Positions 14-33,271 of a stretch of 35,271 nucleotides of DNA are shown here, in pieces (position 1 is the first letter of the stretch; each line of letters begins with the position of its first letter). This DNA comes from Chloroflexota bacterium (lineage in GTDB: Bacteria > Chloroflexota > Anaerolineae > J102). The notes under the pieces were generated by a model, which made no database searches, was not told the origin of the DNA, and was given only the letters and a program-made list of their open reading frames with translations. A program made the position numbers and the translations under genes. The stretch covers positions 1 to 35,271 of the forward strand of contig JAADII010000076.1 of the NCBI GenBank assembly GCA_013151415.1, given 5' to 3'.

Positions 14-3000
14 ATGCGCTTTGGCGTTTTGTTGCTCGTCGTTCTGCTTCTGGCGGGCGGCTTACTGTTCTGGTCGCGGCCGACGTATTCGAATCCTCTT
101 TTTCCGGTGGCGGAAGTTTGGGGTGGGGAGGTCGAGGGGGGCGGAGTCAGGGCGAAGAGGGAGGAGCAAGAGAGAGGCGAGAGGCGGGAAAGGGGCGGCG
201 CGTGGGAAAGCTGGGAGAGGGGAAAAGATGGCATGGAATATGAGATTCAGACCATCGCTCAGGTCGGGGGAGCGACTCGCGCGGTCGTGGCGCACAGAGG
301 CTACGTTTATGCGGCCATTGGCAGGCGGTTGGTGACGCTGGATATTTCCAATCCCGCACAGCCCAAAACCGTGGGCGACCCTGTGCTTGTGGGGGAGCCT
401 GTAAAGGCGTTGAGGGCCGAAGAGCGGCGCCTTTACGCGCTTACGAATCAGAACTTATTGGTTTATGAGATCGACATGCGCGCTTCACCTCGCCTGTTGG
501 GACGGCGGTCATTCATCGCGCGCACCCTGGATATTGTGGGCCAGAGGGCGTATCTTGTCTCCGAAGAGGGCCTCTTCATCTTCGATGTATCCGACCCGAC
601 CCATATTTCGTTACTTGGCTCCTGTCAGGTGGGTTCGGCGTTCGATGTGGCGATTTCCGGGGATCACGCCTTTGTCGGTGGGGGACTTACGACGAACTGG
701 ACGGCGAGCGAGCTATGGGTGATAGACATATCCGATCCGACCGCGCCGCGTTTTGTGAACAGAATGACGTTCTCGCTGTTGAGCGACATCGAAATCGAGG
801 GAAACTACGCCTATCTCGCCACGAACGGTCTGAAAATCCTGGATATTTCCGATCCCCTGGCTTTGCAAGTGATGGGCGAGGTGGATGTGGGCGCGCCTAT
901 CGTGAGCATCGCGGTGCATCAGGGTCGGCTCTTCGCGAATGCAAGGCCGGATCAAAGCGATGTCGCGGCGCAACTATTCGCCATTGATGTTTCTCAGGCG
1001 AGCTCACCCGCGGTCGTTGGAACGTTGCCGTTGCCTAAAAGCGCCTGGTGGGAAACGCCTGCTCTGGCGTTGGTTTCGAATGAGGACGGGACCTGGGTTT
1101 TGCAGCCGTTGATGGAGCTGGGTCTGCAAGTAGTCGATGCAAGCGTTCCGACCGAGATGCAAATTGTGGGTTCGTATTCCGAATTCATCGACGCCGGAGA
1201 TGTTTTTGTGAGCCGCGATTATGCTTATGTGCTTGACTGGGCTGCAAAGCGTCTGCTCATCTATGAGATGACGGATCCGGCCCGGCCTACGGAAGTGGCG
1301 GAATATGGCATCGAAGGCGAACACATCGTGGTTCAAGGCGATTATGCTTATGTGGGCGGCGATGATTTCAGGATTCTCGATGTACGCGATCCGGCCGCGG
1401 CCGTGCAGGTGGGTTTCCTCGGTGGATCGACCGGGGATTTCGATATCAAAGGGCCGTATGCTTATTTGGGTGGGGAGAGCTTTCGCGTGGTGGACATCTC
1501 GAATCCGGCCGAGCCGCGCGTGATGGGTGATCTGGCCGGCGCCGTGCGCGTGGCGAGGGTCAGGGATGGACTTGTCTATACTCTGGAACGGATCATCGAC
1601 GTTTCTAATCCGGCCAATCCGGTCGATCTCGTAACTTACGCTTTGCCGTACCCGAGCAGTTATTTCGATGATCTAGATGTTGAGGATGGCTATTTGTACG
1701 TGGCCGGGGTTTGGGGCTATGCTCCCGCATCGGAGCCATTGGGCTCCATCCTGGATGTAAGCGATCCCAGAAATCCGATCCTGCTCAAATCTGACCGAAG
1801 GTTGGGCGGAGCGCGCGTCGATGTGGTCGAGGGGATGGCCTATATCTCCGGCGACAACGGGAATTTAAACATGGTGGATGTGACGTCACCCACATCACCC
1901 CGAGAAGTTGGAGCCGCCCACTTGCCCAATCCCTGTTGGCCCCATCAGCATTGTTACTGGAACAGCATCCCCGAAAATATTGCTCTCTTCATCGACGATG
2001 ACCTCATTTATGCGGCTCAGGGAGTTGGCGGTTTGTTCGTTCTGCGCCCCACCCGCGCGGCCGTTCCCCCGCCCACGCCCACACCCACGCCCACACCTGT
2101 TCCCACGCCCATTAAGGCCGGACTCACGCCCGTTGCTCAGTTTGGCGGCGTCATTCTGGATATGGACGCTCGGAACAATCTGCTCTATGTGGGTGAGGGT
2201 CGCCGTCTGCTCATTCTGGATGCCGCCAATTCCGAAGTTCTCGAGCCGTTGGGTCGGTCTGCAATGTTTGCGGCCGCCATCGAGGGCGTGGCCGTGGAGC
2301 GCGACTTCGCGTATGTGGTCGCGGAGGGCTTGCATGTGGTGGATGTCTCGAACCCTGCCGAACCGGTTCTGCGCGGACATCTGCCGGGCGTCCGGGGTCG
2401 AGTGCAACTGAGCGGGAATCATCTCTACGCGGTGGAAAGCGAAACAATGCCCGATCTGAGTCGCATCCAGGTTGTCGATGCGTCTAATCCTGATGCGCCG
2501 AGTTTGTTGGGTGCATTTACCGTTCCCGGTCGCGAGGTGGTTGTGCTCGAGCCGTATGTTTACACTCTTGACGAGGATGTATTGCGCATTTTCCAATTGA
2601 GCGAATCGTTGACTCCCTCAGAAGTCGGCTATTACGAGTTGCAAGACCCGTGGTCTCTTGGCGGTCGGTTCGTGGATATGGCCGTGCAAGATGGCGTCGC
2701 TTATCTGACGGTCGATCTCTATGGGTATTGGCCCTCGATTTATCGCATTGTCACCGTCGATGTCTCTGTTCCGGCTCAACCCACCCTGCTGAGCAAGCTC
2801 GAATGGCCGCAATATCATGATCGCGTAGGTGAGATCGAAGTGAAAGGCGATTATGTTTATATGGCCTATTGGCGCAACGAGATTGGCTTTGTGAAAGTTT
2901 ACGATGTTTCGGATCCGTCGGTCATTCGCATCTCGGATTCGATTCGCGTGGCCGACGGCTGTCAGGATCTGCTCATGTTTTTCGATGGAAATCGACTTGT

Positions 3001-4108
3001 CGCGGCCTGCACGCGCTTGTTTTTCATTGTGAATCGCGCTTTTATCGAAGAAATCGATTTCCTCGACATATCCGATCCCGCACATCCTGTCCCTCTCAGC
3101 GATCATAAGCGTTTGGGCCGATATTACACTCTGGTGGAGAAAAACCGCGACGCGCTCTATCTTGCTCGCGAGCTTGGCTCTTGGGATACGAACTGGATGG
3201 AAGCCGTAGTCATTGCCGATCCCGCCAATCCTCGATTTGAAACGGGCGTTGGGTATGTGACAACGATGACCATCCGGGATGCTCGCCTGTATAGTTATGC
3301 CGATATTTGGTCGCCTCTGGATCCAAACCAGTGGTATGGAGATTATCTCACCATTTACGATGCTTCGGATCCCCGGTCTCCTCGGGAACTGGCGCAGGTG
3401 GACATGGCCGATTTCCCCTATTCCTTTTATCGTCCTATTCTGAGCGCCGGTGCAAAGACTCTGTTCGTCAACTCGGTCGATGCCGTCGTCGCCTTTGATG
3501 TGCAAGACCCGGACCATGTGACCGCGTCAGCGGCATACGAGATCGAAGAAGGCGCAATCAAAGACATGGTCGCGGTGGATGATCGCCTTTATGTGCTCAC
3601 ATCGGGCCGCGGGGACGCTCAAATCATCATTTTCGATGTATCGGATCCAACCCGGTTTCGTGAACTTGGACGTTATGCGGTGAAGAACCGCGACGCGAAA
3701 CGACTCGCTATGGAGGGTGGACTGGGATATTTCATCTCCGAAGCGCCTTGCTGCGCCAACGCCGTGCAACGCGAGTTGCACATTGTCGATCTCGGTGATC
3801 CCAGGCAACCGATTTCGGTCGCGAAGATCGATTTGCCCATCACAACCCTGCGCGATTTACATGTCGATGGCGATTTCATCTATATACTGGATGAACGGCG
3901 ATTGTGGGTTGTGGATGCGTCTGAACGTTCACAACCTCGAATCGTGGGAGCATATTCAATCGATGATGGCGCGAGGGCCGTTGAGACGCGAGGGCCGTTC
4001 GCGTTCGTGGTCGATGGCGTGGGAGGATTGCTGGTTTTACGCAACGAACTCATTCCTCCGCCACCCGCGAGTTCTCTTTATCTGCCGCTATTATCAAATC
4101 GCGATTGA
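14..4108 (+). CDS. Large secreted LVIVD-repeat beta-propeller surface protein
   Basis: This 1364-residue protein is built from roughly twenty or more repeats of the type DISNPAQPKTVG / DVSDPTHISLLG, the LVIVD signature of surface beta-propellers. A hydrophobic N-terminus (residues 3-20) should act as signal peptide or anchor. Residues about 35-73 are an odd Gly/Glu/Arg-rich stretch encoded by almost pure purines. A Pro-Thr linker (about 684-702) splits the repeats into two halves, suggesting two propeller assemblies. The protein ends in LYLPLLSNRD, an L-P-L-L tail also seen on the FG-GAP protein at 31733. The function is probably structural or adhesive outside the cell; no catalytic motif was seen. 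ATG at 14 is the first start in the window, but the frame has no stop upstream of it within the window, so the true start could lie outside. The next gene is convergent. Confidence 0.8.
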   Translation: MRFGVLLLVVLLLAGGLLFWSRPTYSNPLFPVAEVWGGEVEGGGVRAKREEQERGERRERGGAWESWERGKDGMEYEIQTIAQVGGATRAVVAHRGYVYAAIGRRLVTLDISNPAQPKTVGDPVLVGEPVKALRAEERRLYALTNQNLLVYEIDMRASPRLLGRRSFIARTLDIVGQRAYLVSEEGLFIFDVSDPTHISLLGSCQVGSAFDVAISGDHAFVGGGLTTNWTASELWVIDISDPTAPRFVNRMTFSLLSDIEIEGNYAYLATNGLKILDISDPLALQVMGEVDVGAPIVSIAVHQGRLFANARPDQSDVAAQLFAIDVSQASSPAVVGTLPLPKSAWWETPALALVSNEDGTWVLQPLMELGLQVVDASVPTEMQIVGSYSEFIDAGDVFVSRDYAYVLDWAAKRLLIYEMTDPARPTEVAEYGIEGEHIVVQGDYAYVGGDDFRILDVRDPAAAVQVGFLGGSTGDFDIKGPYAYLGGESFRVVDISNPAEPRVMGDLAGAVRVARVRDGLVYTLERIIDVSNPANPVDLVTYALPYPSSYFDDLDVEDGYLYVAGVWGYAPASEPLGSILDVSDPRNPILLKSDRRLGGARVDVVEGMAYISGDNGNLNMVDVTSPTSPREVGAAHLPNPCWPHQHCYWNSIPENIALFIDDDLIYAAQGVGGLFVLRPTRAAVPPPTPTPTPTPVPTPIKAGLTPVAQFGGVILDMDARNNLLYVGEGRRLLILDAANSEVLEPLGRSAMFAAAIEGVAVERDFAYVVAEGLHVVDVSNPAEPVLRGHLPGVRGRVQLSGNHLYAVESETMPDLSRIQVVDASNPDAPSLLGAFTVPGREVVVLEPYVYTLDEDVLRIFQLSESLTPSEVGYYELQDPWSLGGRFVDMAVQDGVAYLTVDLYGYWPSIYRIVTVDVSVPAQPTLLSKLEWPQYHDRVGEIEVKGDYVYMAYWRNEIGFVKVYDVSDPSVIRISDSIRVADGCQDLLMFFDGNRLVAACTRLFFIVNRAFIEEIDFLDISDPAHPVPLSDHKRLGRYYTLVEKNRDALYLARELGSWDTNWMEAVVIADPANPRFETGVGYVTTMTIRDARLYSYADIWSPLDPNQWYGDYLTIYDASDPRSPRELAQVDMADFPYSFYRPILSAGAKTLFVNSVDAVVAFDVQDPDHVTASAAYEIEEGAIKDMVAVDDRLYVLTSGRGDAQIIIFDVSDPTRFRELGRYAVKNRDAKRLAMEGGLGYFISEAPCCANAVQRELHIVDLGDPRQPISVAKIDLPITTLRDLHVDGDFIYILDERRLWVVDASERSQPRIVGAYSIDDGARAVETRGPFAFVVDGVGGLLVLRNELIPPPPASSLYLPLLSNRD

Positions 4109-6020: not shown

Positions 6021-6141
6021 CGAGATGGCTGTGTAAGGTGTATTCCATTCCCCCGTCCCGCCGCTGAGGAAGCCCGCCTTAAATCAATCTTCAGCCATTG
6101 CAGGCTTCACTGCATTTTTCTTCTTCGGAGGAATGGTTAGC

Positions 6142-7968
6142 GTGCCTATTTCCACTCTCAGGAATCTGAGTTCGCCGGTCAAACAGTTCATTACCATACT
6201 GGTCGCGTGTTTGTTGTTGTTTGCTTTTCTTGCGCCCCTCGGTCTCATGGTGATGCGCCATGTACAGGGTTCCCTGGATCGCGAACTGTATCATCAGATG
6301 CTCACCATGCGCCGATGGTTTGTCGACACAGGTTATTACCTGCGAGATGAAGCGCGCTTGTTGGCGGAGTTTGACGCGTTCGAGGATACACTAAATTCGC
6401 ATGACGAGATGCAATTGCGCCGTTTGATGGCTCTTTACCAAAGAACGCATGGTTCGGATGGGATTTATTTGATCACTGATGCGGCCGAGGTGCTCACGGC
6501 GTCTGCATCGCCGCGACTGGACGAGGCCACTGTCATTGGTCTGGATATTGTGCGTAAGGGGTTTAATGGCCAGACCCTGGCCGAAATGATAACCGCTGAT
6601 GGAAAGATTTGGCTGATGGCCGTGGCGCCGCACGCCAAGCCGGATGGCGTGATCGACGCGGTCTTTCTCATCACTCGGGAGGTCGATCCCGCATTTTTAC
6701 AGACATTTTCCCATGGTTTGAATGGAACGATTGCTTTAACAGACGGCGTTGTGCAGGTTCGTTCGAGTTCGGTGGAGATGCCCGAGGAAATCTCCGCTTC
6801 ACTTCATCAGGCGGTGGAAAGCCAAACGGGAGAAATGCTTCAGCCCTATACAGTTCGCTCCGATGGCGTCTCGTATCGCGTGCTTGCGGCCCCGCTCATG
6901 GTGACGCATTCGGGATCATACGCCATCGCTCTGATCAAAAATGCAGAAAGCGTCAATGCCGCGCTTTGGCGCAGTGTGCAATGGGGCGCGGTGTTGGGCG
7001 TCATCTCCATTGTATTGGCGCTTGCGTTGGTTCAATTCCATATTGTCAATATCTTTCGTCCACTTCGTTCTCTCACCAAATCCACGAAACGGATAGCAGC
7101 CGGGCATCTTGATGAGCCGCTCGAAGTTTCTGGAGTGGCCGAGGTTTATGATTTGGCCGTCAACTTTGATCGCATGCGAGCGCGTTTGAAGGCGTTGCTG
7201 GAACGGGAGCGCATGTTGGCTGAAAGTTTGGAGCTTCAGGTTGAGAAAAAGTCGCAGGCGTTGGCCGAAGTGTGCCGCGTGCGCGAACATCTGTTGGCGC
7301 AGCTTATTTCCTCGCAAGAGGAGGAGCGACGGCGCGTCTCGCGTGAATTGCACGACGCTACAAGTCAGGAATTGGCGAATCTCATTGTTCGGTTGGGCGC
7401 GCTTTCCCGCATGGTCGAGGATGAGGAGGTCTTGAAGCAGATCAATGTGTTGCGAACGCAAGCCGTTCAGACCCTTGAAGGCGTGAACCGAATCGTATTG
7501 GATTTGCGGCCGGGTCTATTGGATGAATACGGTTTGGTGCCGGCTGTGCATTGGTACGCGGATGCGCGGTTGGAATCGACCGGGATATCTGCTAGAATGG
7601 ATGTGAAAGGTTCTCCTCATGAGATTTCCTCTTACGCTCAGGCCAGCATTTACCGAATGGTTCAAGAAGCTATCAACAATGTTGCACAGCATTCACAGGC
7701 AAGCGAGGTGGTTATTCGCATTGACTGGCGGGCGGAGGAATTGCAGATCGAGGTGGAGGATGACGGGATCGGTTTTGATACAGAAACAGCCTTTGACGTC
7801 GCCAATGGTCATTATGGTTTGTTAGGGATAAGAGAGCGCGTGGCGTTGTTGAGCGGTGCGCTTGATATTCAATCATCTCCGGGCGCTGGCACGCGCATCA
7901 TTATTCGCGTGCCCTATGCCCTGAACACCGCGAGGAAAAATGGCAAAGATCAAAGTTCTGCTGGTTGA
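6142..7968 (+). CDS. Membrane sensor histidine kinase, NarX/HisKA_3 type
   Basis: This kinase autophosphorylates and should pass phosphate to the regulator encoded next. A first membrane helix (about residues 14-37) and a second (about 276-298) enclose a roughly 235-residue extracellular sensor region of Cache-like size. A HAMP segment (FRPLRSLTKSTKRIAAGHL), a coiled coil, and the HisKA_3 box EEERRRVSRELHDATSQEL follow, with His404 as acceptor. The ATPase domain has an N box (QEAINNVAQHS) and a G1 box (EDDGIGFD). I start at GTG 6142, because GGAGG at 6127-6131 lies ten bases upstream; the ATG at 6133 is one base from that site and too close. The 3' end overlaps the response regulator by 29 bases, so the two are co-expressed. 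The signal sensed is unknown. Confidence 0.9.
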   Translation: MPISTLRNLSSPVKQFITILVACLLLFAFLAPLGLMVMRHVQGSLDRELYHQMLTMRRWFVDTGYYLRDEARLLAEFDAFEDTLNSHDEMQLRRLMALYQRTHGSDGIYLITDAAEVLTASASPRLDEATVIGLDIVRKGFNGQTLAEMITADGKIWLMAVAPHAKPDGVIDAVFLITREVDPAFLQTFSHGLNGTIALTDGVVQVRSSSVEMPEEISASLHQAVESQTGEMLQPYTVRSDGVSYRVLAAPLMVTHSGSYAIALIKNAESVNAALWRSVQWGAVLGVISIVLALALVQFHIVNIFRPLRSLTKSTKRIAAGHLDEPLEVSGVAEVYDLAVNFDRMRARLKALLERERMLAESLELQVEKKSQALAEVCRVREHLLAQLISSQEEERRRVSRELHDATSQELANLIVRLGALSRMVEDEEVLKQINVLRTQAVQTLEGVNRIVLDLRPGLLDEYGLVPAVHWYADARLESTGISARMDVKGSPHEISSYAQASIYRMVQEAINNVAQHSQASEVVIRIDWRAEELQIEVEDDGIGFDTETAFDVANGHYGLLGIRERVALLSGALDIQSSPGAGTRIIIRVPYALNTARKNGKDQSSAG

Positions 7969-8593
7969 CGATCATGCTATCTTGCGAGCAGGGCTTCGCT
8001 CTTTACTGGCCACCTACGATGATATTGAAGTGGTGGGCGAGGCCTCTAGCGGTGAAGAGGCGATTCGCAAAGTGCCCGAGCTCAAACCCGATGTTATCGT
8101 CATGGATGTGCTCATGCCTGGGATGAATGGGCTCGTGGCCACTCGTTACATTCTGGAGAAATATCCGGACGCGCGTATTCTCATGCTCACCCAATATGGA
8201 AACAAAGAATATGTGTTGCCATTATTAGAAGCCGGCGCGGCTGGCTATGTTCTCAAGCAAGCCGCCGATACCGATTTTGTCAAAGGCATTCGAGCGGTTT
8301 ATGAAGGAAATTCCTATCTATATCCACCCATCGCCAAACTTGTGCTCGAGGCGTTGATGGCTGGCGAAGATGCGTCTGATCCTGAGCGAATGCTTACTCC
8401 TCGCGAACGCGAAGTGCTTGTCTTGGTGGCGCAGGGCTACACCAATAATGAGATTGCTGACATCCTTTACATTAGCCCCAAGACGGTGGACGTGCATCGC
8501 ACTCGCATGATGAACAAACTGGATCTGCATAATGTTGCGGAAATCGTTCGTTATGCGGTGCGAAGACACTTGATTGATCCGTATGAGGAATAA
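7940..8593 (+). CDS. NarL/FixJ-family response regulator
   Basis: This 217-residue transcription factor is phosphorylated by the kinase just upstream. The receiver has the acidic pair Asp10-Asp11, phosphoacceptor Asp56 ([13 protein letters not shown]), Thr84 and Lys106 (GYVLK). A LuxR-type helix-turn-helix occupies about 150-210 ([20 protein letters not shown], then [15 protein letters not shown]). ATG at 7940 follows GAGGA at 7932-7936 and lies inside the kinase reading frame. Likely targets are unknown. The nearest candidate site is the palindrome at 8781-8798, upstream of the receiver-like gene that precedes the cytochrome operon. Confidence 0.93.
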
Positions 8594-8931: not shown

Positions 8932-9387
8932 ATGACGGATATCAAGGTATTGATCCTTTGCCACTCACCCACTGTTCGCTCCAAGATCGAAGAACTGCTC
9001 TTGGCATGCGCCGATGTACGCATCGTTGGATCCACTGGAGCGCACGAAGATATCCTCAGGGTGGCGAGACGCACTCAGCCGGATGTGCTTGTTATTCATG
9101 CCGCTGGCTCTGAAGGTTTTCAGGCTGATCTGTTGTTTCGGTTGAAACAAGTGCAGCCGAACTTGAAGACCTTGATGTTGGGCTGCCCACCCGATCAGGC
9201 TCGTATTCATTTTGCTGAATTAGCGCCCTGGGGCCTGAGAGGCTGGATCTGCAATTGGGAAGGATCGAGTGAGTTGGTCGATGCTCTCTATGCACTCAGA
9301 AACGATGATTTCTACCTTTGTCCTGTTGCAAGCCACGTCTTAGTTGACGCTTATCGAGATATGCACCATCAGCTTGTCCGCAGATAA
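8932..9387 (+). CDS. Stand-alone degenerate receiver-domain protein (pseudo-receiver)
   Basis: These 151 residues align along their whole length with the receiver half of the regulator at 7940: KVLILCHSPTVRSKIEELL against [19 protein letters not shown], and FYLCPVASHVLVDAY against [15 protein letters not shown]. Every phosphorylation residue is changed: Asp10-Asp11 to Cys-His, Asp56 to His56, Thr84 to Gly84, and the conserved Lys to Asn. There is no DNA-binding domain. It may work by phosphate-independent protein contacts, for example by pairing with the intact regulator, but this is inference. ATG at 8932 is the first start in its open frame; no good ribosome-binding site precedes it. It lies between the two-component pair and the cytochrome operon. 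Confidence 0.7.
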   Translation: MTDIKVLILCHSPTVRSKIEELLLACADVRIVGSTGAHEDILRVARRTQPDVLVIHAAGSEGFQADLLFRLKQVQPNLKTLMLGCPPDQARIHFAELAPWGLRGWICNWEGSSELVDALYALRNDDFYLCPVASHVLVDAYRDMHHQLVRR

Positions 9388-9528: not shown

Positions 9529-11118
9529 ATGAGTCGATTTTCGTTTCGCAGAAAGCGCATTGCAGAGGAGAATGTCCCCGAGAAAGCCATAGAAGCTCCC
9601 AAGCGACGGCGCCTTCCGGTTGTGCAGATTGATTTCAACCAGCCTTCACATCGTCGCATACTCACCTTTGGTTTTTTGGGTTTGCTTCTGTCGGGCGTCA
9701 TTATCCTCGTGGGTGGCATCAAGACATACGAATATACCGAAAGCGCTGAATTTTGCGGGCAAACTTGTCATGTGATGACGCCCGAATTCGTTCGCTTCGA
9801 AGAATCGCCCCATGCTAACGTCGATTGCGCCATGTGTCATATTGGGCCTGGGGCCTCCTTCTTTATCAAGTCCAAAATCGATGGCCTCAAGCAAGTCTAT
9901 GCAGTGATGACGGACTCGTACAGTCGGCCTATTCGGAGTCCGGTGCATGATCTTCGCCCCGCTCGCGAGACGTGTGAAGAATGCCATGCACCCACCATGT
10001 TCAAGGATAATATTATCAAGATAATCAAGCATTACGATAACGACGAGGCCAATACGCCGGTGCAATCCACCTTTATTTTGAAGATGGGTGGTTGGCAAGA
10101 GGAGGGTGGAGTTAGGGAGGGCATTCATTGGCACATTTCCAATCCTGTTTACTATATTCCCGCCGATGATCAACGACAGGTGATCCTCTGGGTGGGAATG
10201 GAACAGGAGGATGGAACGCTAAAAGAATTTTACTCGCGCGACATGCTCAATATGGCGTGGGGCTCTTTTGTAGAAGAGGCTCGCGCCGCGGGCAAAGTGC
10301 GGCAGATGGATTGCATCGACTGCCACAATCGCACGGCTCATTTCATCCCGCCACCCGAGGTGGTTGTTGACAAGAGCATCGCAGAAGGACGTATTTCGGC
10401 TGATCTTCCTTTCATTCGGGCCAAGGCCGTGGCCTTATTGAGCAACGAGTACGCCTCGAGCGCCGAAGCTTACGCCGCTATTGATGCATTGGCCGATTAC
10501 TATATGCGCATGCAGCGACGCATCACATCCAAGGATGGCGATGACCAAGAATATCCACCCATCTTTGCGAAAACCTATGATTTCCAAGCCAAAGTGAACG
10601 CCAGCCTGGATGAAATTAAGCGCTTATATTCAGAAACGCATTTTCCTGAAATGCGCTTGAACTGGAAGACCAATCCCAACAACGCCCGACATAATCCCTT
10701 TCCGGGTTGTTTCCGATGTCATGACGGCAAGCATGTTTCTCTTGATGAAAATGGGAACGAAGTCGAGGTTATCAGCGTCAAGTGCAATCTTTGCCACACT
10801 GTGCCCATTGTAGGCCGGGGCGACGACATGCTGGTCGAAGCGCCGGTCGTGGTGGGGCAAGTCCCCCCCTCGCACTCCGACTTCAGCTGGACTATCGAGC
10901 ATCGATCTGTGCAGGACGCCCAATCAGAAGGGTGCTACGATTGTCATGGCCAGCGATTTTGTAGCAATGGCGTTTGCCACAATCTTTCTCATCCTCCCGA
11001 CATGCTCTATTCCCATGCCGAGGAATATCGCAAACGCGGAGGTCAAGTGTGCTACACCTGTCACCAGGATGTGCTCTGTAGTCGTTGTCATCCCGGCGGC
11101 ATTATCACCAACCCCTAG
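9529..11118 (+). CDS. Membrane-anchored ten-heme c-type cytochrome (NapC/NirT-like N-terminus)
   Basis: The 529-residue protein has a basic cytoplasmic tail, one membrane helix (about 45-63), then a large outer domain. Ten heme-attachment motifs are visible: CGQTCH at 76 (C-x3-CH, followed by V-M as in NapC/NrfH heme 1), CAMCH 100, CEECH 149, CIDCH 262, CFRCH 394, CNLCH 418, CYDCH 468, CSNGVCH 478 (C-x4-CH), CYTCH 508 and CSRCH 517. The N-terminal layout is that of quinol-oxidising NapC/NrfH-type cytochromes, so it probably draws electrons from menaquinol. The rest of the protein is not one I can name. No ribosome-binding site is evident before ATG 9529. It heads a run of six genes; the TPR gene starts 20 bases after it. 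Confidence 0.85.
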   Translation: MSRFSFRRKRIAEENVPEKAIEAPKRRRLPVVQIDFNQPSHRRILTFGFLGLLLSGVIILVGGIKTYEYTESAEFCGQTCHVMTPEFVRFEESPHANVDCAMCHIGPGASFFIKSKIDGLKQVYAVMTDSYSRPIRSPVHDLRPARETCEECHAPTMFKDNIIKIIKHYDNDEANTPVQSTFILKMGGWQEEGGVREGIHWHISNPVYYIPADDQRQVILWVGMEQEDGTLKEFYSRDMLNMAWGSFVEEARAAGKVRQMDCIDCHNRTAHFIPPPEVVVDKSIAEGRISADLPFIRAKAVALLSNEYASSAEAYAAIDALADYYMRMQRRITSKDGDDQEYPPIFAKTYDFQAKVNASLDEIKRLYSETHFPEMRLNWKTNPNNARHNPFPGCFRCHDGKHVSLDENGNEVEVISVKCNLCHTVPIVGRGDDMLVEAPVVVGQVPPSHSDFSWTIEHRSVQDAQSEGCYDCHGQRFCSNGVCHNLSHPPDMLYSHAEEYRKRGGQVCYTCHQDVLCSRCHPGGIITNP

Positions 11119-13498: not shown

Positions 13499-14404
13499 AT
13501 GAAAAAACTACTCATCGCATCCCTGTTGGTTGTAGTGTTGTTGCTTCTTGCAGTCAACGTCGCTTCAGCCAACGGCGGGCCTCACGGCGACTATGCCGCC
13601 GCCACTGATGCCTGTGCTGGCTGCCACCGCGCTCACACCGCAAAAGCAGACAAACTGCTTAAGGAAGCCGGAAAGACATACGATTTGTGCATCTCCTGCC
13701 ACGGCGCGGCGGGAACCGGCGCCAACACCAACGTTGAAGATGGCGTCTATCTCTCTTCGCGCGATGACGCCGCCGGAGACGGCAACCATGGCGCTGGCAA
13801 CACCCCGGACAACAGCCCGCTTCTTGGTGGAGGCTTCGTCAATTATAAAGGCGTAGCCGTCACTTCCACCCACGATCCCACGGGCGTTGTTTCGGGCGCT
13901 TGGGGCGCTGGCGATGTACGCGGGCAGATGGGCACCATTGACCGAGCGCTTGACTGCGCCTCCTGCCACGATCCCCATGGGTCGCCCAACTATCGTATTC
14001 TCAAAGAGACGATCAACGGCGCCACCGTTTCGGTCGCCCAGGTTGATGAAGGCGCGAGCAAAGACTACGATACGGCGAATTGGAACACCGATCAGAGCAA
14101 TGTCTGTGGCGCGTGCCACAACCCGTATCAGCATGCAGGCGCCGACACCACCAGCGGCACCTACACCCACCCGGTGGATCGAAACAACAAGGCCGAGTAC
14201 ATGCCGCCTGAATATACGGTCGGCGGCGTCACGGTGAGCGTGCCTCTGGCTGCCAACAACTACATCGTTTGCCAGACTTGCCACCTGCCCCACGGCACCT
14301 CGGCCCAGATGGCCGGCTTTGCGGATGGCGCTGGCCCCGCTGGCGACAGCGCTTTGCTGCGCGAAGATAATCGCGGCGTGTGCCAGGCCTGCCACAAGAA
14401 GTAG
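13499..14404 (+). CDS. Secreted hexaheme c-type cytochrome
   Basis: A clear signal peptide (residues 1-24, cleavage after VASA) precedes a 277-residue mature protein with six CxxCH motifs: CAGCH 39, CISCH 64, CASCH about 153, CGACH about 203, CQTCH about 258 and CQACH about 294. Pairs such as CASCHDPHG fit the doubled-CxxCH type of multiheme protein. The N-terminal module HGDYAAATDACAGCHRAHTA is nearly repeated in the next two genes, so the three arose by duplication. No catalytic site was recognised, so electron transfer is the likely role. AAGGAG at 13484-13489 sits nine bases before ATG. The protein has no membrane anchor after cleavage and would be free in the wall or bound to partners. 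Confidence 0.88.
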   Translation: MKKLLIASLLVVVLLLLAVNVASANGGPHGDYAAATDACAGCHRAHTAKADKLLKEAGKTYDLCISCHGAAGTGANTNVEDGVYLSSRDDAAGDGNHGAGNTPDNSPLLGGGFVNYKGVAVTSTHDPTGVVSGAWGAGDVRGQMGTIDRALDCASCHDPHGSPNYRILKETINGATVSVAQVDEGASKDYDTANWNTDQSNVCGACHNPYQHAGADTTSGTYTHPVDRNNKAEYMPPEYTVGGVTVSVPLAANNYIVCQTCHLPHGTSAQMAGFADGAGPAGDSALLREDNRGVCQACHKK

Positions 14405-14450
14405 CCTTCAGCGCGATTCCCCCTCGCGACTGTTGCGCACCACCACAAAT

Positions 14451-14492
14451 GGCTCCTTCCCCGAGTCTATCTTGGGGAAGGAGCCAAGGAGG
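14451..14492 (+). promoter_or_regulatory. Inter-cistronic hairpin abutting the ribosome-binding site
   Basis: GGCTCCTTCCCC (14451-14462) pairs perfectly with GGGGAAGGAGCC (14474-14485) around an 11-base loop. The next bases are the AAGGAGG ribosome site (14486-14492). There is no T-run, so this is not an intrinsic terminator. The CTCCTT of the left arm could pair with either the AAGGAG of the right arm or that of the ribosome site. Confidence 0.6.
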
Positions 14493-14499
14493 CGGGATC

Positions 14500-15504
14500 A
14501 TGAAAAGGCGTTTTCTTGCCGTTATTGCCGCCATCCTTCTTTTGATGGTCATTACGCCTGCGCATGCAGACAATGGGCCTCATGGCGGTTATGCCGCGGC
14601 CACCGATGCTTGTGCGGGCTGTCATCGCGCACATACGGCGCAGGGCGAACCCTTGTTAATGGCTGGCGCGGCCTATGATCTGTGCATGACCTGCCACGGC
14701 GCCACTGGCAGCGGCGCCGACACCAACGTCGTTGACGGCGTATATTTGCAGAGGGACAACCAGACCGAGCCATCTGACGAAGGGGTTGTCAACCGTGGCT
14801 TGAAAGGAGGAGGTTTTTCATACGCTCGCATGGACTCGAGCTGGACCGGAACAGCCACGGTCGCCCCTGTCACTTCTGCGCACATCTGGAACGATGGGGC
14901 CGGCGTGGTGTGGGGCGGCGGCGCCATCGGCTCTGGCGCGGGCGATAGCATCAATCTCTCCTGCATCTCTTGCCATGACCCACATGGAAACGCGGGAGAC
15001 AACAATGGCCCCACTTATCGCATCCTCCGCTCCACTCCCATTGGTTCGGGCTCTGGCGCCACGAGCGTGCCCGACGAAAACCAAAAGAATTACACCATCG
15101 ACGACAGCTCGGGCAAGTATTTTGGTCAGTCTTACAACAGCGACATATTCAGCCAACTTGCATATTGGTGCGCCGAATGTCATGATCGCTATTTAGCTCC
15201 TTCGGGCAGCGGCGGTTCAGACTCTGGCGACCCGATCTTCGCTTATCGGCACATCTCTGTGGGAAGCGGCTGCGGTTGCCATAATATTCATGGTGGTCCG
15301 CCGCCCACAGGCAACCCTGAATATGCTCATAAACCCGTTTCTTGCCTGACTTGCCACGTTGCTCACGGCAGTTCGGCCGTTATGACGGGCAATGCGGGTC
15401 AGGCGCCCTGGCCCGATGGCGCCACTTCTCCCAGCGGAGACGCGCGAAGCGCTCTCTTGCGAGTGGATAATCGAGGGACATGCCAGTTGTGTCACGATAA
15501 ATGA
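14500..15504 (+). CDS. Second secreted hexaheme c-type cytochrome
   Basis: The 334-residue paralogue of the preceding cytochrome has a signal peptide (1-23, AHA then D), and CxxCH motifs at CAGCH 38, CMTCH 62, CISCH about 154, CAECH about 224, CLTCH about 282 and CQLCH about 328. An extra Cys-Gly-Cys-His near 257 (GSGCGCHNIHG) resembles a heme site but is one residue short. The first 70 residues of the mature protein match the preceding gene closely. ATG 14500 follows AAGGAGG at 14486-14492; an open frame continues upstream to 14380 but has no ribosome site and would lack a signal peptide at its start. Its stop overlaps the start of the DUF11 fusion gene. Confidence 0.87.
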   Translation: MKRRFLAVIAAILLLMVITPAHADNGPHGGYAAATDACAGCHRAHTAQGEPLLMAGAAYDLCMTCHGATGSGADTNVVDGVYLQRDNQTEPSDEGVVNRGLKGGGFSYARMDSSWTGTATVAPVTSAHIWNDGAGVVWGGGAIGSGAGDSINLSCISCHDPHGNAGDNNGPTYRILRSTPIGSGSGATSVPDENQKNYTIDDSSGKYFGQSYNSDIFSQLAYWCAECHDRYLAPSGSGGSDSGDPIFAYRHISVGSGCGCHNIHGGPPPTGNPEYAHKPVSCLTCHVAHGSSAVMTGNAGQAPWPDGATSPSGDARSALLRVDNRGTCQLCHDK

Positions 15505-18500
15505 TGACGCATCGTTGCAAGCCCATTATCGCACTCAAATCGTTGCAGGTCTCCGTTGCCATCAAAATAGCGCTGGCCATTTTGATGGGTTGCTTGGGGG
15601 TGGTCCTGGTGTTTGCGCCGGACATCTGGGCCGCCCCATTGGGGCAGGGCGGGGGAGGGTCTCATCATGGAAATTACACGGCAACCACCGCGGCTTGTGC
15701 AAAGTGCCATCGCGCGCACACAGCGAATCGAGATAATCTGTTGATAAAGGGTGGCGGTGGGGGAGGCGCCTTGATCGCGCAAAACAACGATGCAGACTAT
15801 CGTATTGCTGAGGACAATCGATTTTGCAATACATGCCACAATGGCACTGGGGCGTCTACAGCCATGCCCGTATCCGCGCACGGCAACGGCGATTTCGCTG
15901 CGCGTTCCGGCGACGCGTTTTTGTTGAAATGCGTCGATTGTCATGATCCTCATGGCTCAGGAAATTTGTTCGATATCAAAGAATACGTGTTCTCCAGCAC
16001 AGGCGAGCCAGTCGGCCCAGTGATATTGACCTCTCGCACAGGTCTCAATTCCTTTGACGATGGCGTAAGTCCGCCCAGCGCTCGTCTTTGCGTGACTTGC
16101 CACGAAGGCAGAGCGGGCATGAACCATGTGGGCGGGGCCGGCCATGAAGGCAATTTCGATTTTAGTGGTGAAGACTGCCTGGTTTGCCATCCACATAGTG
16201 CGGATAGACGGCAGGAGACCAACGACGGCTTCATGCTTGCCCCCAATGTGCGTGAATTGCTGATCGCCAGAGCGCGAGTCGATTTAGGGGTGAGTCAATC
16301 GCTCTCGTCCGATCTTCTTGTCTCCGGAACGCCCTACACCTACACTTTTGTGGTGACAAATTTTGGCCCTCAGGATGCTTGGGGCGTTGTATTCACCGAC
16401 ACCTTGCCCGCGGGCGTTGAGTTGCTCAGTGTGGACAATGCCATCGGCGCCAATTGTTTCGCCTTTGAGCGCGAGGTGCAATGCGCTTTAGGCGATATGC
16501 GCGCAGGCGAAAGCGTCTCTTTGTCTCTGCATGTTTTACCTGCATCCCATCTTTATGGTCTCATTCCCAATCAAGCCGAGGTGCGCGCGGTGCAGGCCGA
16601 CCCCGCCCCTCAGAACAATGTCTCGATATCCGAAGATTCCATTGTGCGTCATGCTGATCTCAGCCTCGATCAAACGGTGACTCCGTTTAGCGTTCTGGCC
16701 GGAGAGAAGTTGACATATACATTGACGATTGCCAATCTCGGGCCCTCTGTCGCTACGGATGTCATTGTGGAAAACACGTTGCCAGAGGGCGTCGAATTCA
16801 TTGCGGCCACGGCTTCGCAAGGGGCGTGCGCGTATGCAAATGGCGTTGTCAGCTGTGATTTGGCGGTTCTTCCGGCGGGAAAAGGCGCAACGGTGGTCAT
16901 CGAGGCCCTGGCTAGTGATATGAACGCGATCTTGGCGAACCTCGCGCGTGTATCTGGCCAAGATTATGATCCCAATCCCGCCAACAATTCGGCCAGAGCG
17001 AGTAGCGAAGTCGTTTGGCAGGCCGATCTCTCCGTTACTCAGAATGCCAACCCATCGCCGGTTGAGGCAGGAACGCTTCTCACATACACCATCGTTGCAA
17101 GCAATGCGGGGCCCTTGACCGCCACCAACACGCGGCTTCGCGACGCCTTGCCAGCCAGCGTTGAGTTGCTGAGCGCATCCCCAAGCCAGGGGCTTTGCAC
17201 CGCCAACGACAACAACGCGGTCACTTGTCGTTTGGGTGATCTGGCCCAAGGCGCTCAAGCCGTCGTTTCATTGGTCGTGCAAGCGCCAAAATCGTCAGAT
17301 GTGCTCACGAATGTGGTTCACATCGCGGCCGAGCCTGAGGACCCCAACCCGGTCAACGATTCATCCACTCTTGAAATCTCTGTTTACGACGGCCCCGATT
17401 TGGCCGTGGTCGCTGCAACCGATCCCGCTGTTGCAACCCCTGGGCGAAGCCTAAAGTACGTCATCGATGTCATCAATATGGGATATACGCCGGCCAACCG
17501 CGTCACCCTGGTCAATGCCATGCCCGCGGACGTGACGCTTGTTTCGGCCACCTCGACCAAAGGCCCTTGTTACGTCAATGCAGATAAGATCACATGCGAA
17601 ATTGGCGCGATGGCGGGAAAGCAAAAAGAAACGGTCACTATTTTGGTTGATGTCTCCGAAGAAGCTGTGGGGGTTTTGGTCGATTCCGCGACGGTTGATG
17701 TTGATGGCGTTGATCCCGATTTGGAGAACAACGTGGCCACCATCGAAACCGAGATTGTCCCGGAAGCTGATCTATCTATCACCAAAGAAGTTTCATCCAA
17801 TGTCGCATCAATCGGCGATGTGCTGAGCTACACCTTTGTCGTGACCAATGCCGGACCCAGCCTGGCCACCAACGTCATGCTGCATGACACATTGCCCCTG
17901 GCGCTTTTGGTCGAGTCGGTGACCACAAGTCAGGGCGAGTGTGAATTAATCGATGATGATCTTTACTGCAATTTGGGTTCATTGGCAAAGGGCGCTGAGG
18001 CCATCGTGATATTGCGAGCAAAGGTGCTGATCGAAACCTCCTTTCTAACCAATACTGTGTTCGTCGTCTCAGATGTGCGCGATCCCGATGAAAGCAACAA
18101 CTCGGCTAATGTGGTTGTTTCCACTGCGCCTCAAACGCCCACATTGACGCCCTTGCCCAGCCCCACCAGGGTTATCACGACAACCCCGACAGCGACTTCC
18201 ACCTCGACGCCCACCTCCACGCCCGTCGTGATGCAAACCCCAACCGCCACCCCAACCGCTGTTTTCACGGCCACCCCAACTCCAACGCCGTCGCTCACGC
18301 CCACGGTGGGTGGGACCCCGACCGTAGGCCCCACCAAGGCGCTCACGCCCACACCAGCCATCGATCCAACTCCCACCCCCACGATTGGCCCCACCTCTTC
18401 ACCCAGCCCAACGGCAACGCCAACTTCCGCCAACGCGCTGGAGCCGACGCCAACTCCGACGCCCGCGGCGTCGCCTCAATTGGCTGTTGATTTGTGGCTC

Positions 18501-18542
18501 TTCTTTGCGCGGTTATCGGTTTTCTTTCTCCGCATCGCATGA
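15501..18542 (+). CDS. Secreted pentaheme cytochrome fused to five DUF11 repeats and a Thr-Pro stalk
   Basis: This 1013-residue protein starts with a long signal peptide, then a heme module homologous to the two upstream cytochromes, with CAKCH 66, CNTCH 109, CVDCH 144, CVTCH 197 and CLVCH 226. Five DUF11 domains follow at about 258, 383, 506, 630 and 754, each with an ADLSxTxxxxP opening, a YTxxxxNxGP core and a Cys-containing tail. Residues about 876-990 are a Thr-Pro-rich stalk, and the last 20 residues are hydrophobic (LWLFFARLSVFFLRIA). I infer that the stalk crosses the cell wall and the C-terminus holds the membrane, displaying the hemes outside; the end helix contains Arg and is not a strong anchor. 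The start overlaps the previous stop (ATGA); ATG 15504 is an alternative. Confidence 0.82.
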   Translation: MMTHRCKPIIALKSLQVSVAIKIALAILMGCLGVVLVFAPDIWAAPLGQGGGGSHHGNYTATTAACAKCHRAHTANRDNLLIKGGGGGGALIAQNNDADYRIAEDNRFCNTCHNGTGASTAMPVSAHGNGDFAARSGDAFLLKCVDCHDPHGSGNLFDIKEYVFSSTGEPVGPVILTSRTGLNSFDDGVSPPSARLCVTCHEGRAGMNHVGGAGHEGNFDFSGEDCLVCHPHSADRRQETNDGFMLAPNVRELLIARARVDLGVSQSLSSDLLVSGTPYTYTFVVTNFGPQDAWGVVFTDTLPAGVELLSVDNAIGANCFAFEREVQCALGDMRAGESVSLSLHVLPASHLYGLIPNQAEVRAVQADPAPQNNVSISEDSIVRHADLSLDQTVTPFSVLAGEKLTYTLTIANLGPSVATDVIVENTLPEGVEFIAATASQGACAYANGVVSCDLAVLPAGKGATVVIEALASDMNAILANLARVSGQDYDPNPANNSARASSEVVWQADLSVTQNANPSPVEAGTLLTYTIVASNAGPLTATNTRLRDALPASVELLSASPSQGLCTANDNNAVTCRLGDLAQGAQAVVSLVVQAPKSSDVLTNVVHIAAEPEDPNPVNDSSTLEISVYDGPDLAVVAATDPAVATPGRSLKYVIDVINMGYTPANRVTLVNAMPADVTLVSATSTKGPCYVNADKITCEIGAMAGKQKETVTILVDVSEEAVGVLVDSATVDVDGVDPDLENNVATIETEIVPEADLSITKEVSSNVASIGDVLSYTFVVTNAGPSLATNVMLHDTLPLALLVESVTTSQGECELIDDDLYCNLGSLAKGAEAIVILRAKVLIETSFLTNTVFVVSDVRDPDESNNSANVVVSTAPQTPTLTPLPSPTRVITTTPTATSTSTPTSTPVVMQTPTATPTAVFTATPTPTPSLTPTVGGTPTVGPTKALTPTPAIDPTPTPTIGPTSSPSPTATPTSANALEPTPTPTPAASPQLAVDLWLFFARLSVFFLRIA
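18127..18470 (+). repeat. Thr-Pro codon repeat (stalk-coding, low complexity)
   Basis: Irregular repeats of ACN-CCN codons encode the proline/threonine stalk of the DUF11 fusion protein. Similar shorter tracts occur in the genes at 14 (near 2070-2115) and 20409 (near 20505-20625). They are coding, not a separate element. Confidence 0.7.
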
Positions 18543-18780: not shown

Positions 18781-20058
18781 ATGGTTCGCGCACATCGACG
18801 CATATACTTGCTTTTCATTGTTTTTGCTCTACTGTTGTTTCTGTGCGTGGCGACGGGGGCCGAGGTGGCGCAGCGTTTCAAGCGCAGCTCGCCCACGCAG
18901 ACCGCAGCGGAACGCTTGGTGGAAGCGTATCGTTTCGATCTGCTTCGCTATGAGATTTCGGCCATCGCGGAAAAAGGGGTTGACCTCACGCGCAGATTGG
19001 GAAGTCGGCTCACGCCAGCAGAGCAACAGCGACTGGTCACCGAATACAACCGCCGCGCCAACGAGCTCTCGCAACTGGAACGCGAGATCACCCGCATCTA
19101 CGCAGACCCCAACATCGCGGATCCCGCTGCGGCGAGCGCGGAATTGCGCCGCAAACAGACGAACATGCGCGCGCTTCAGCGAGATGTGCAGTCTCTGGTC
19201 GAGGCTATTCTGGAAAAGCAAGTGACCGACGCGTTGGCCCAATTGAATTTGACCACCGCGGGGATGGTCTGGCCGCCGGTTCGCTTCACCTTTGATGATC
19301 TGCCCGACTTTTTAATCGTCTCTCCTCGAGAACGCATCGAGTTGGAGGCGGGGGTGCATTTGCGCGGAGATTTGGATATGGCCCAGATCGAATCCATCGA
19401 AGACGCGGTGGCGCAAGCGCTGAATCGCTCTACGCTTGTCGAGAGCTTGGGCGGCCTGGGCGTTTGGCCAACATTGGTCAGTGACGAGGCCAGCCTGGCG
19501 TGGATTCTCAGCACCATCGCCCATGAGTGGGTTCACACCTATCTCGTTTTCTTCCCCCTGGGCCAAAATATGTTTGATAGCGCGGAAATGAACACCATTA
19601 ACGAAACCGTGGCCGACATTGTGGGAGATGAGGTGGGATGGCGTGTGGCCACAGAAATATATGGATTGGATGTCCCGCCGCCTGAACCGCCCCCTCCTCC
19701 AGACCTGACCCCGCCTCCGCCTGATCCTGACGTCTTTGATTTTCGCACCGAGATGCGACGCACGCGGTTGCGCGTGGACGATCTGCTGGCCGAAGGGCGA
19801 GTGGAGGAAGCCGAACAGTATATGGAAATGCGACGTCGCGAGTTTGTGGCCAATGGTTATCCCATTCGTAAGCTCAATCAGGCCTATTTCGCTTTTCATG
19901 GCAGCTACGCCACGACCGCGGCTTCGTCCGATCCCATCGGTCCCAAACTGTGGGAGCTACGCGAGCGAACGCCCGACCTGGCCACCTTTCTTCGAGACGC
20001 GCGCAGCATTCGCGAGCCGGCCGATTTGGACGCGCTATTGGAAGAGCGAGCACAGTAA
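18781..20058 (+). CDS. Membrane-anchored HExxH zinc metalloprotease, family not recognised
   Basis: An N-terminal membrane helix (about residues 8-25) leads into a charged, helical, coiled-coil-like region (40-145), then a domain with the zinc motif HEWVH (His248, Glu249, His252) and, 22 residues later, NETVADIVGDE, whose Glu275 is a plausible third ligand. This layout is that of gluzincin-type metallopeptidases. A Pro-rich linker (PPPEPPPPPDLTPPPPDPD, about 301-319) separates a C-terminal helical tail. Substrate and family name are unknown to me. The gene is predicted to be leaderless, starting at 18781 directly after an extended -10. It follows the cytochrome run but has its own promoter. 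Confidence 0.75.
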   Translation: MVRAHRRIYLLFIVFALLLFLCVATGAEVAQRFKRSSPTQTAAERLVEAYRFDLLRYEISAIAEKGVDLTRRLGSRLTPAEQQRLVTEYNRRANELSQLEREITRIYADPNIADPAAASAELRRKQTNMRALQRDVQSLVEAILEKQVTDALAQLNLTTAGMVWPPVRFTFDDLPDFLIVSPRERIELEAGVHLRGDLDMAQIESIEDAVAQALNRSTLVESLGGLGVWPTLVSDEASLAWILSTIAHEWVHTYLVFFPLGQNMFDSAEMNTINETVADIVGDEVGWRVATEIYGLDVPPPEPPPPPDLTPPPPDPDVFDFRTEMRRTRLRVDDLLAEGRVEEAEQYMEMRRREFVANGYPIRKLNQAYFAFHGSYATTAASSDPIGPKLWELRERTPDLATFLRDARSIREPADLDALLEERAQ

Positions 20059-31732: not shown

Positions 31733-33271
31733 CTATTTGCGAAGCAAGGGGAGAAACAGCGGGCACCCCTCTTCGCGAATGGCGTAGATGTCTTCAGGCG
31801 GCGCATAGGTCGCGTAGACGACATCATGACCGCGGTCTCCCTCCAGATCGAGAAAAGCGTAGTAAAGAGACCGAATGCCGAAATCGAACGGACGCCGTGT
31901 GAAGACGCCGTGACCATCATTGAGAAATAGCATGGGGTTGGGATCTTGCTCGCTCCATATTCGGGCGATCAAATCTCTGTCCTGATCGCGATCGATGTCC
32001 ATCCAGGCCAGTTGATAGACATAGAAAGCGTCATCGTTGTCGGACTGCGCAAGTCTCGTTGCCGTCTCATCGCGAAAAGTTCCATCTCCGTTATTGATCA
32101 GAACCTGGATATGCCATCCCACGTAATTTCCTCGCGTATATGCGATCAGGAGGTCAGGATGACCATCGTCGTTGAGATCATCGGTGAGGATGTCCAGAGC
32201 AATGGCCGAGGGAGCGAACGGCTTCGAGGGCATGGCTCCCGACAATTGCGAAAAGCGCCCCGATCCGTCATTGAGCAGCACCACCGAATCCGGACCGCCC
32301 GCCAAATCGTCGCCCGCGTCGCCCAGAACCAAATCCACGGCGCCGTCGTTGTTCACATCCACGAACTCGCTGGCCGTGTAACCGTTTAGGCTGAGATTTG
32401 TTTGGGCGGCGGGAAGACGGCCCTCCGCGATGGTAAAGGTTCCATCGCCCGCGTTTAGCCAGATCTGCGGCGGAATCATATTCTGACCCCAGATGTTGTT
32501 CACATAGAGGTCCAGATCGCCGTCATTGTCGATGTCTCCGGCCGCGGCGCCATGCGGATTGTCGTATTGCTGAGGCAAACCGGCCGTGGCGTCCACCAGT
32601 TTGCCGCCGGGAGCAGACAAAATAAGCGTGTTCTGATAGCCGGGGAAGGGATCGGCGTCCTTGCCGCCGTCGGGCAAGAAAATGTCATCTCGACCATCGC
32701 CGTTGAAATCCGCGATGACGGGGATGTAAGGACCCTGTGTGAGCGGGATTTCGCCGCCGAAGAGCTCGTCCGCGGCCGGCGCGAGCCCGCCGCTTCCATC
32801 ATTCAGGAGAATCTCGATGGGGAACGTCTTGGTGGTGGCGAACCGCATCCGCCTGATGAAGATGTCGTCGAGGCCGTCTCCGTTGAAATCGCCGGATGCC
32901 GGCTCAGGTTCATATCCCTGTTCGTCGGCCGCGGGAACACGAACCACGAATCGGGGCCGGCCGTAGCGAGGCAAACACGTGGGCCGCGATTGCGGCTGGC
33001 CGCCCTCGCCAGGTTGGAAGCCGCCGACCAGCGCGTATGGCCCACCCGCGAGCGCATCGACCTCGCTCTGACCCGCGACTCCGCTCAGCGCGTAGCTCCC
33101 TCCCGCGACCAAGCCATAACCGCCGCCAATGGCCTGGCCGTCGAGCCGATAGTCACCACCGGATTGCGAAGAGGTTGGGGTGGAGATGGCCAAAAGCAAC
33201 AGAAAAACGAAAAGGAGAAGGCCAAACCCGTAGTTCCTAAGGGCTTTTTTCGAGCAAACAAATGAGGTCAT
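31733..33271 (-). CDS. Secreted FG-GAP/VCBS-repeat protein
   Basis: This 512-residue protein has a signal peptide (about 1-36) and Gly/Tyr/Leu-rich repeats (YRLDGQAIGGGYGLVAGGSY) of a kind common in secreted Chloroflexota proteins. At least six calcium-binding loops of the FG-GAP/VCBS propeller follow, such as GDFNGDGLDDIF (about 125), ADFNGDGRDDIF, GDIDNDGDLDLY, VDVNNDGAVDLV, DDLNDDGHPDLL and MDIDRDQDRDLI. It ends in FLPLLRK, matching the tail of the LVIVD protein. GGGGAGG lies upstream of ATG 33271. The start overlaps the stop of the crystallin-domain gene by four bases, so the two are co-translated surface proteins. Confidence 0.85.
   Translation of the reverse strand: MTSFVCSKKALRNYGFGLLLFVFLLLLAISTPTSSQSGGDYRLDGQAIGGGYGLVAGGSYALSGVAGQSEVDALAGGPYALVGGFQPGEGGQPQSRPTCLPRYGRPRFVVRVPAADEQGYEPEPASGDFNGDGLDDIFIRRMRFATTKTFPIEILLNDGSGGLAPAADELFGGEIPLTQGPYIPVIADFNGDGRDDIFLPDGGKDADPFPGYQNTLILSAPGGKLVDATAGLPQQYDNPHGAAAGDIDNDGDLDLYVNNIWGQNMIPPQIWLNAGDGTFTIAEGRLPAAQTNLSLNGYTASEFVDVNNDGAVDLVLGDAGDDLAGGPDSVVLLNDGSGRFSQLSGAMPSKPFAPSAIALDILTDDLNDDGHPDLLIAYTRGNYVGWHIQVLINNGDGTFRDETATRLAQSDNDDAFYVYQLAWMDIDRDQDRDLIARIWSEQDPNPMLFLNDGHGVFTRRPFDFGIRSLYYAFLDLEGDRGHDVVYATYAPPEDIYAIREEGCPLFLPLLRK

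Follow-up and report, generated by a model that had tools for sequence, protein, structure and literature searches.

Multiheme cytochromes joined in one chain to structural domains have been described in anaerobic methanotrophic archaea (ANME), whose MHC-A and MHC-B proteins are fused to S-layer, peptidase M6-like and pectin-lyase-like domains (PMC9012536, PLoS Biol 2022). Surface multiheme cytochromes have also been described in monoderm bacteria–for example, ARMA_0580 of Ardenticatena maritima (PMC5808234) and OmhA of Carboxydothermus ferrireducens (PMC7829351)–and an OmcB-like, cysteine-rich DUF11 protein is known from Methanobacterium formicicum (PMC11224092). Here we analyse a 35,271-nucleotide stretch of DNA from a Chloroflexota bacterium (positions 1 to 35,271 of contig JAADII010000076.1, called the window), in which one gene at positions 15501-18542 encodes a pentaheme cytochrome module followed in the same frame by five DUF11 domains and a Thr/Pro-rich stalk. 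The ANME cytochrome/S-layer fusions are the closest analogue, in concept, of this protein, which we call the fusion. We read it as the surface-displayed, tethered last subunit of a conduit made of secreted cytochromes, and put the probability of this reading at roughly 60%.

A pentaheme cytochrome in frame with five DUF11 domains

The heme region of the fusion has five CxxCH motifs, at residues 66, 109, 144, 197 and 226 (window positions 15696, 15825, 15930, 16089 and 16176). When residues 1-250 were shuffled 20,000 times, such motifs averaged 0.03 per sequence and never reached five. The doubled-CXXCH family of Pfam (Paired_CXXCH_1) matches with an E-value of 2.8e-10, and five histidines outside the motifs (residues 127, 151, 209, 215 and 232) are invariant in the alignment of fusion copies. 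The N-terminus is basic and then strongly hydrophobic as far as the sequence IWAA, with a 19-residue hydropathy maximum of 2.66 at residue 19. The protein thus has the five CxxCH motifs, conserved histidines and predicted signal peptide expected of a c-type multiheme cytochrome, and cytochrome c assembly proteins are encoded in the genome. Further along the chain, Pfam recognizes five DUF11 (PF01345) domains with an E-value of 1.3e-111 (367 bits against a cut-off of 24.6), all of them containing a conserved cysteine pair (residues 319/328, 443/452, 566/576, 690/699 and 814/823). As judged by sequence, these results confirm a multiheme c-type cytochrome joined in one chain to a DUF11 rod and a stalk, and the Pfam matches, motif positions and residue counts bear out the order of parts given in the initial annotation: pentaheme, five DUF11 domains and a stalk of more than 100 residues.

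The heme/DUF11 junction is conserved

We found the fusion in 5 of the 20 genomes of the family that were searched, the other four being G008, G009, G018 and G017 (in the last of which it is split on two contigs). The copies are 49-55% identical overall, and 57-62% identical in alignments of the heme-junction region. All four relatives keep the junction between the heme module and the DUF11 rod intact and in frame, and the linker that spans it is nearly invariant. Across residues 238-266, differences fall mostly at third codon positions (13-18 differences there, 5-10 at first positions and 6-7 at second positions). This third-position excess means that the frame is translated across the join and that the junction is under purifying selection.

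An assembly or gene-calling artefact that joined a cytochrome gene to a DUF11 gene is therefore refuted at the junction, since four independent genomes share the same in-frame join with a codon-position bias, and a frameshift or misassembly near 16230-16280, against which the initial annotation had cautioned, is ruled out. Nor does the stalk in the window contain any exact repeat longer than 13 bases. The one sign in favour of an artefact comes from a relative, G139, whose contig looks chimeric within the Thr/Pro stalk, and we regard such an origin for the fusion as extremely improbable. We also rejected the G139 copy (L035 1127-4534, contig G139:C335) as proof of a wider distribution: over its first 3975 bases the contig matches G018 at 99.3% identity, even though G139 belongs to another family, and its frame then jumps from the stalk into a multicopper-oxidase-like C-terminus. 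This contig is probably a chimera formed at a low-complexity stretch, or contamination.

No fusion was found outside the family among 400 genomes of the phylum (E-value limit 1e-15). A plasmid search gave no match to the fusion, and a search of other genome contigs gave a match to DUF11 only, in Streptomyces melanogenes. Searches of an open-access library for papers on DUF11 with multiheme or CxxCH proteins, Methanoperedens plasmids included, gave mentions only and no heme-DUF11 fusion. Within that library, we can uphold the earlier statement that DUF11 is not known from redox proteins.

Predicted structure and the C-terminal end

In an AlphaFold2 model the DUF11 part forms consecutive beta-sandwich domains, with a predicted local distance difference test score (pLDDT) of about 74-94. 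Immunoglobulin-like domains are about 4 nm long, so five of them would make a rod of near 20 nm, and we estimate that the stalk could extend to some 35 nm when stretched. The rod and stalk contain no heme in about 780 residues, and therefore cannot themselves conduct; electrons must come to the pentaheme module via other cytochromes of the cluster.

The initial annotation had proposed that this architecture holds the hemes far from the membrane, and had noted a hydrophobic end. The extended stalk is borne out and the distance is plausible, whereas anchorage in a membrane lacks support. The hydrophobic end (LAVDLWLFFARLSVFFLRIA) is present but weak: its Kyte-Doolittle hydropathy reaches only 1.7 in a 19-residue window, its roughly 20 hydrophobic residues include an Asp and two Arg, and the C-termini of the other fusion copies all differ from it or are cut by a contig end. 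With such low hydropathy, charged residues and no conservation, we consider a C-terminal membrane anchor unsupported. No sortase motif of the LPxTG type was found at the C-terminus of the fusion; one sortase gene is present in the host genome.

Among the best fold matches of the rod are integrin alpha ectodomains and the immunoglobulin-like rod of the adhesin PrgB, and in aggregates DUF11 proteins have been named as candidate adhesins (PMC11224092). Both points could favour an adhesin with a redox head, in which the rod would mainly bind the protein to minerals, to partner cells or to matrix, and the hemes would make electrical contact at that site, as could the subtilase or weak lectin-like domains on the terminal proteins of other families (see below). 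We consider this role unlikely, because no ligand-binding feature was identified in the rod, and because the heme head lies at the N-terminus beyond the rod, with the stalk at the opposite end, an arrangement that a spacer explains at least equally well.

The pentaheme module is related to hexaheme cytochromes

Two hexaheme cytochromes, A and B, are encoded upstream of the fusion. A profile of the pentaheme module aligns with the hexaheme profile over hemes 1-4 (hhalign probability 99.5%, E = 5.8e-23), in agreement with the homology that had been proposed from the letters of the window. Hexahemes end two residues after their last CxxCH in nearly every sequence. The fusion has no counterpart of this C-terminal sixth heme, and the DUF11 rod stands in its place.

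This difference would fit a role as filament cap or anchor: hexaheme A would be an OmcS-like filament subunit that is produced in excess, with the pentaheme module at one of the filament's ends and the rod and stalk fixing that end to the envelope. A profile of 33 hexahemes matches OmcS (6ef8/6nef) with an E-value of 4.5e-6; hemes 2-5 align in order, heme 3 lies in the sequence CSSCHDPHG (CHDPHG) and both proteins have their last CxxCH at the very C-terminus. However, the correction for composition bias on this score is large (25.7 bits), and the same profile matches NrfA (E about 3e-6) and chain A of 6r2q (E = 5e-10; we take this chain to be MtrA, the label of the database record being wrong) as well as or better than OmcS. 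OmcS is therefore not singled out by sequence, and the match is a lead and not proof of membership. By sequence, neither the pentaheme module nor hexaheme B had a useful match among solved structures, and the AlphaFold2 model of the hexaheme, with a pLDDT of only 61, had no Foldseek match; the filament is hypothetical.

A capped filament would also need more hexaheme A than fusion, and an RNA hairpin between hexaheme A and hexaheme B is of the kind expected for a more abundant first cistron. The hairpin has a z score of -5.5 and is unique in the genome. Relatives keep its position after hexaheme A, with sequences that differ between genomes: in 21 of 22 hexaheme A loci the best 50-nucleotide hairpin is at or below -18 kcal/mol (median -27.2). 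Medians are -13.7 to -18.2 kcal/mol after non-hexaheme genes of the cluster and unrelated genes (p from 2e-4 down to 2e-7) and -21.3 kcal/mol after hexaheme B (p = 0.003 versus hexaheme A), p-values that overstate the evidence because the loci are related by descent. The hairpin may be a site of mRNA stabilisation or processing and so raise hexaheme A above the downstream products. Taken together, we hold a role as filament cap or anchor to be a tentative and rather unlikely alternative; a full system of OmcS-like hexaheme filaments in a monoderm cell, with their ends capped or fixed by a DUF11-rod subunit lacking the sixth heme and the ratio set by the hairpin, is more doubtful.

Gene cluster and proposed role

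The fusion gene closes a cluster whose genes all run in one direction (Table 1). The TGA of hexaheme B overlaps the ATG of the fusion (ATGA), as it also does in G008, which suggests coupled translation of the two. Several families of the class keep the same gene order: histidine kinase, response regulator, second regulator, a decaheme protein with cytochrome b561 in some, octaheme NapC/NirT-type protein, TPR protein, NHL protein, hexahemes and a terminal gene. Clusters contain one to three hexahemes, and many have the decaheme membrane protein and cytochrome b561 ahead of the octaheme. Among 396 genomes of the class, 28 have the NHL gene and 31 the hexaheme genes, and these are nearly the same genomes.

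Table 1. Positions of the features discussed, counted from the first nucleotide of the window.
Feature	Position	Strand	Basis or remark
Membrane sensor histidine kinase (HisKA_3)	6133..7968	+	Pfam
NarL/LuxR-type response regulator	7940..8593	+	Pfam
Receiver-like small regulator	8932..9387	+	Position conserved
Octaheme NapC/NirT-type membrane cytochrome, candidate quinol dehydrogenase	9529..11118	+	
TPR protein with hydrophobic segment	11085..12119	+	Listed TTG start unlikely; ATG at 11139 fits better
NHL beta-propeller protein, N-terminal hydrophobic segment	12116..13306	+	
Hexaheme cytochrome A, secreted	13499..14404	+	Ends two residues past sixth CxxCH
Intercistronic RNA hairpin, 16-bp stem	14450..14486	+	After hexaheme A; no U-tract
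Hexaheme cytochrome B	14500..15504	+	Listed reading frame from 14380; likely start ATG at 14500 behind AGGAGG
Pentaheme-DUF11(5)-Thr/Pro stalk fusion protein	15501..18542	+	1013 amino acids, frame open throughout
Predicted Sec-type signal peptide of fusion	15501..15635	+	Residues 1-45, ending ...FAPDIWAA; by eye and hydropathy
Pentaheme module	15651..16235	+	Five CxxCH; homologous to upstream hexahemes
Conserved linker, heme module to DUF11 rod	16236..16280	+	PNVRELLIARAxVDLxVSQ begins here; intact in five genomes
Five DUF11 (PF01345) domains	16281..18116	+	16281-16625, 16656-17003, 17025-17375, 17397-17744, 17769-18116; Pfam, alignment, AlphaFold2 model
Thr/Pro-rich stalk	18123..18473	+	117 residues, of which 39 T and 29 P (68, 58%)
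Short hydrophobic C-terminal end	18474..18539	+	Not conserved among relatives

As a member of the Chloroflexota the host is presumably monoderm, and no outer-membrane porin was found among the window genes scanned, so that the cluster does not have the make-up of a porin-cytochrome conduit (MtrCAB/PCC). We propose that electrons from the quinone pool would enter the membrane octaheme NapC/NirT-type protein, joined in relatives by cytochrome b561 and the decaheme protein, would pass the secreted hexahemes, and would then reach or leave the pentaheme module at the cell surface. The rod of five DUF11 domains would be rigid and non-conducting, and the Thr/Pro segment would span the wall as a flexible spacer, so that the fusion would tether and position a redox head without conduction along its own length. 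In this scheme we infer the surface location, the direction of electron flow and the tethering by the C-terminus.

Several observations weigh against the scheme. The AlphaFold2 model of the heme module is not confident (pLDDT mostly 26-54), the putative C-terminal anchor is weak and varies among the copies, and deletion of multiheme/NHL clusters in Desulfovibrio ferrophilus left Fe(III) oxide reduction intact (PMC9769857), so such a cluster is no proof of extracellular respiration.

The fusion might instead work within the envelope, as an electron store or in detoxification (reduction of nitrite, peroxide or metals at the wall), with no contact to solids. Short multiheme proteins often act in nitrite or metal reduction, and the hexaheme profile matches NrfA as noted above. 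On the other hand, every cysteine in the heme region of the fusion lies inside a CxxCH motif, with no catalytic heme of the NrfA-type CxxCK, and in the cluster a Pfam scan recognized multiheme proteins but no soluble reductase. We think this role quite improbable. Because adhesion, capping and conduction are mutually compatible, our confidences in the different roles overlap.

Directly downstream of the fusion, positions 18781-20058 encode a secreted 425-residue protein with a zinc-protease-like HEWVHT motif and no Pfam family at an E-value of 0.001.

The last gene of the cluster varies among families

In other families the terminal position is occupied by different large proteins. In one family (f35) the last gene encodes sixteen hemes, three of the four genomes adding a Thr/Pro tail. 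In G564 the cluster ends with a subtilase (PF00082) and fifteen hemes in one frame (L082 6993-12197), and G028 has a subtilase (PF00082) and seven hemes in one frame close to its cluster (L120 4516-7974). Last-gene proteins with twelve and forty-seven hemes are found in G635; the larger is a single frame of 2483 residues (L130 8877-16328) that contains 47 CxxCH and, at its C-terminus, a weak lectin-like (Laminin_G_3) domain. Like the fusion, the subtilase-multiheme proteins and the sixteen-heme proteins with Thr/Pro tails (G564, G028, G708, G732 and G672) come last after a hexaheme, and G564, G708, G732 and G672 have a related pentaheme module, whereas the seven hemes of G028 did not match. 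They differ from the fusion in having no DUF11, and more hemes or an N-terminal protease.

In most other families where it is clear, the pentaheme module continues into one more heme and the motif PQDNGDG, and the DUF11 chain of the fusion starts at this boundary. The partner thus seems to have been exchanged at the module border, and the differing large extensions on related pentaheme modules at the same position suggest a variable surface end. Continuation of the module into more hemes in most families also speaks against the pentaheme being the end of a filament.

Large secreted proteins at window positions 14-4108 and 31733-33271, as well as both large frames of L130, end in YLPLLxxR/K or a YLPVILK-like sequence, possibly a lineage-specific C-terminal signal; this ending is not present on the fusion. 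The genome of the window contains a second cytochrome cluster (L038, G000:C12:11000-30000), whose proteins have 18, 22, 32, 9, 2 and 8 CxxCH motifs. Two modules of the 32-heme protein are similar to the pentaheme.

Comparison with known systems

The locus bears on how cytochromes are held outside the wall in cells without an outer membrane, and on how cytochrome filaments start, end and are attached. It supplies candidates for each part: a heme module carried by a rod that does not conduct, the homologous hexaheme as a would-be conductor and the hairpin as a would-be setter of their ratio.

Like OmcS, the hexahemes of the cluster (but not the fusion) are secreted, with six hemes of which hemes 2-5 are collinear, CHDPHG at heme 3 and the last heme at the C-terminus, the score of this resemblance being unspecific. 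Unlike OmcS, they are known from sequence and their assembly into filaments is hypothetical, and the fusion lacks the sixth heme. The DUF11 protein of M. formicicum has no described c-type heme motifs; with the fusion it shares secretion, cysteines and a proposed surface role.

The ANME MHC-A and MHC-B proteins, for which an electron path through a proteinaceous envelope has been proposed, also combine a multiheme cytochrome and a structural surface domain in one chain. They are archaeal and have far more hemes, a DUF1608-type S-layer domain with an internal heme and a C-terminal transmembrane helix, whereas the fusion has no S-layer match in Pfam and no clear helix, and is built from five hemes, a heme-free DUF11 rod and a Thr/Pro stalk. 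ARMA_0580 and OmhA differ from the fusion in heme number and have no described fusion to DUF11. With the cluster around the fusion they share secreted multiheme cytochromes in what are, or in our host would be, cells without an outer membrane, and theirs are linked to extracellular electron transfer.

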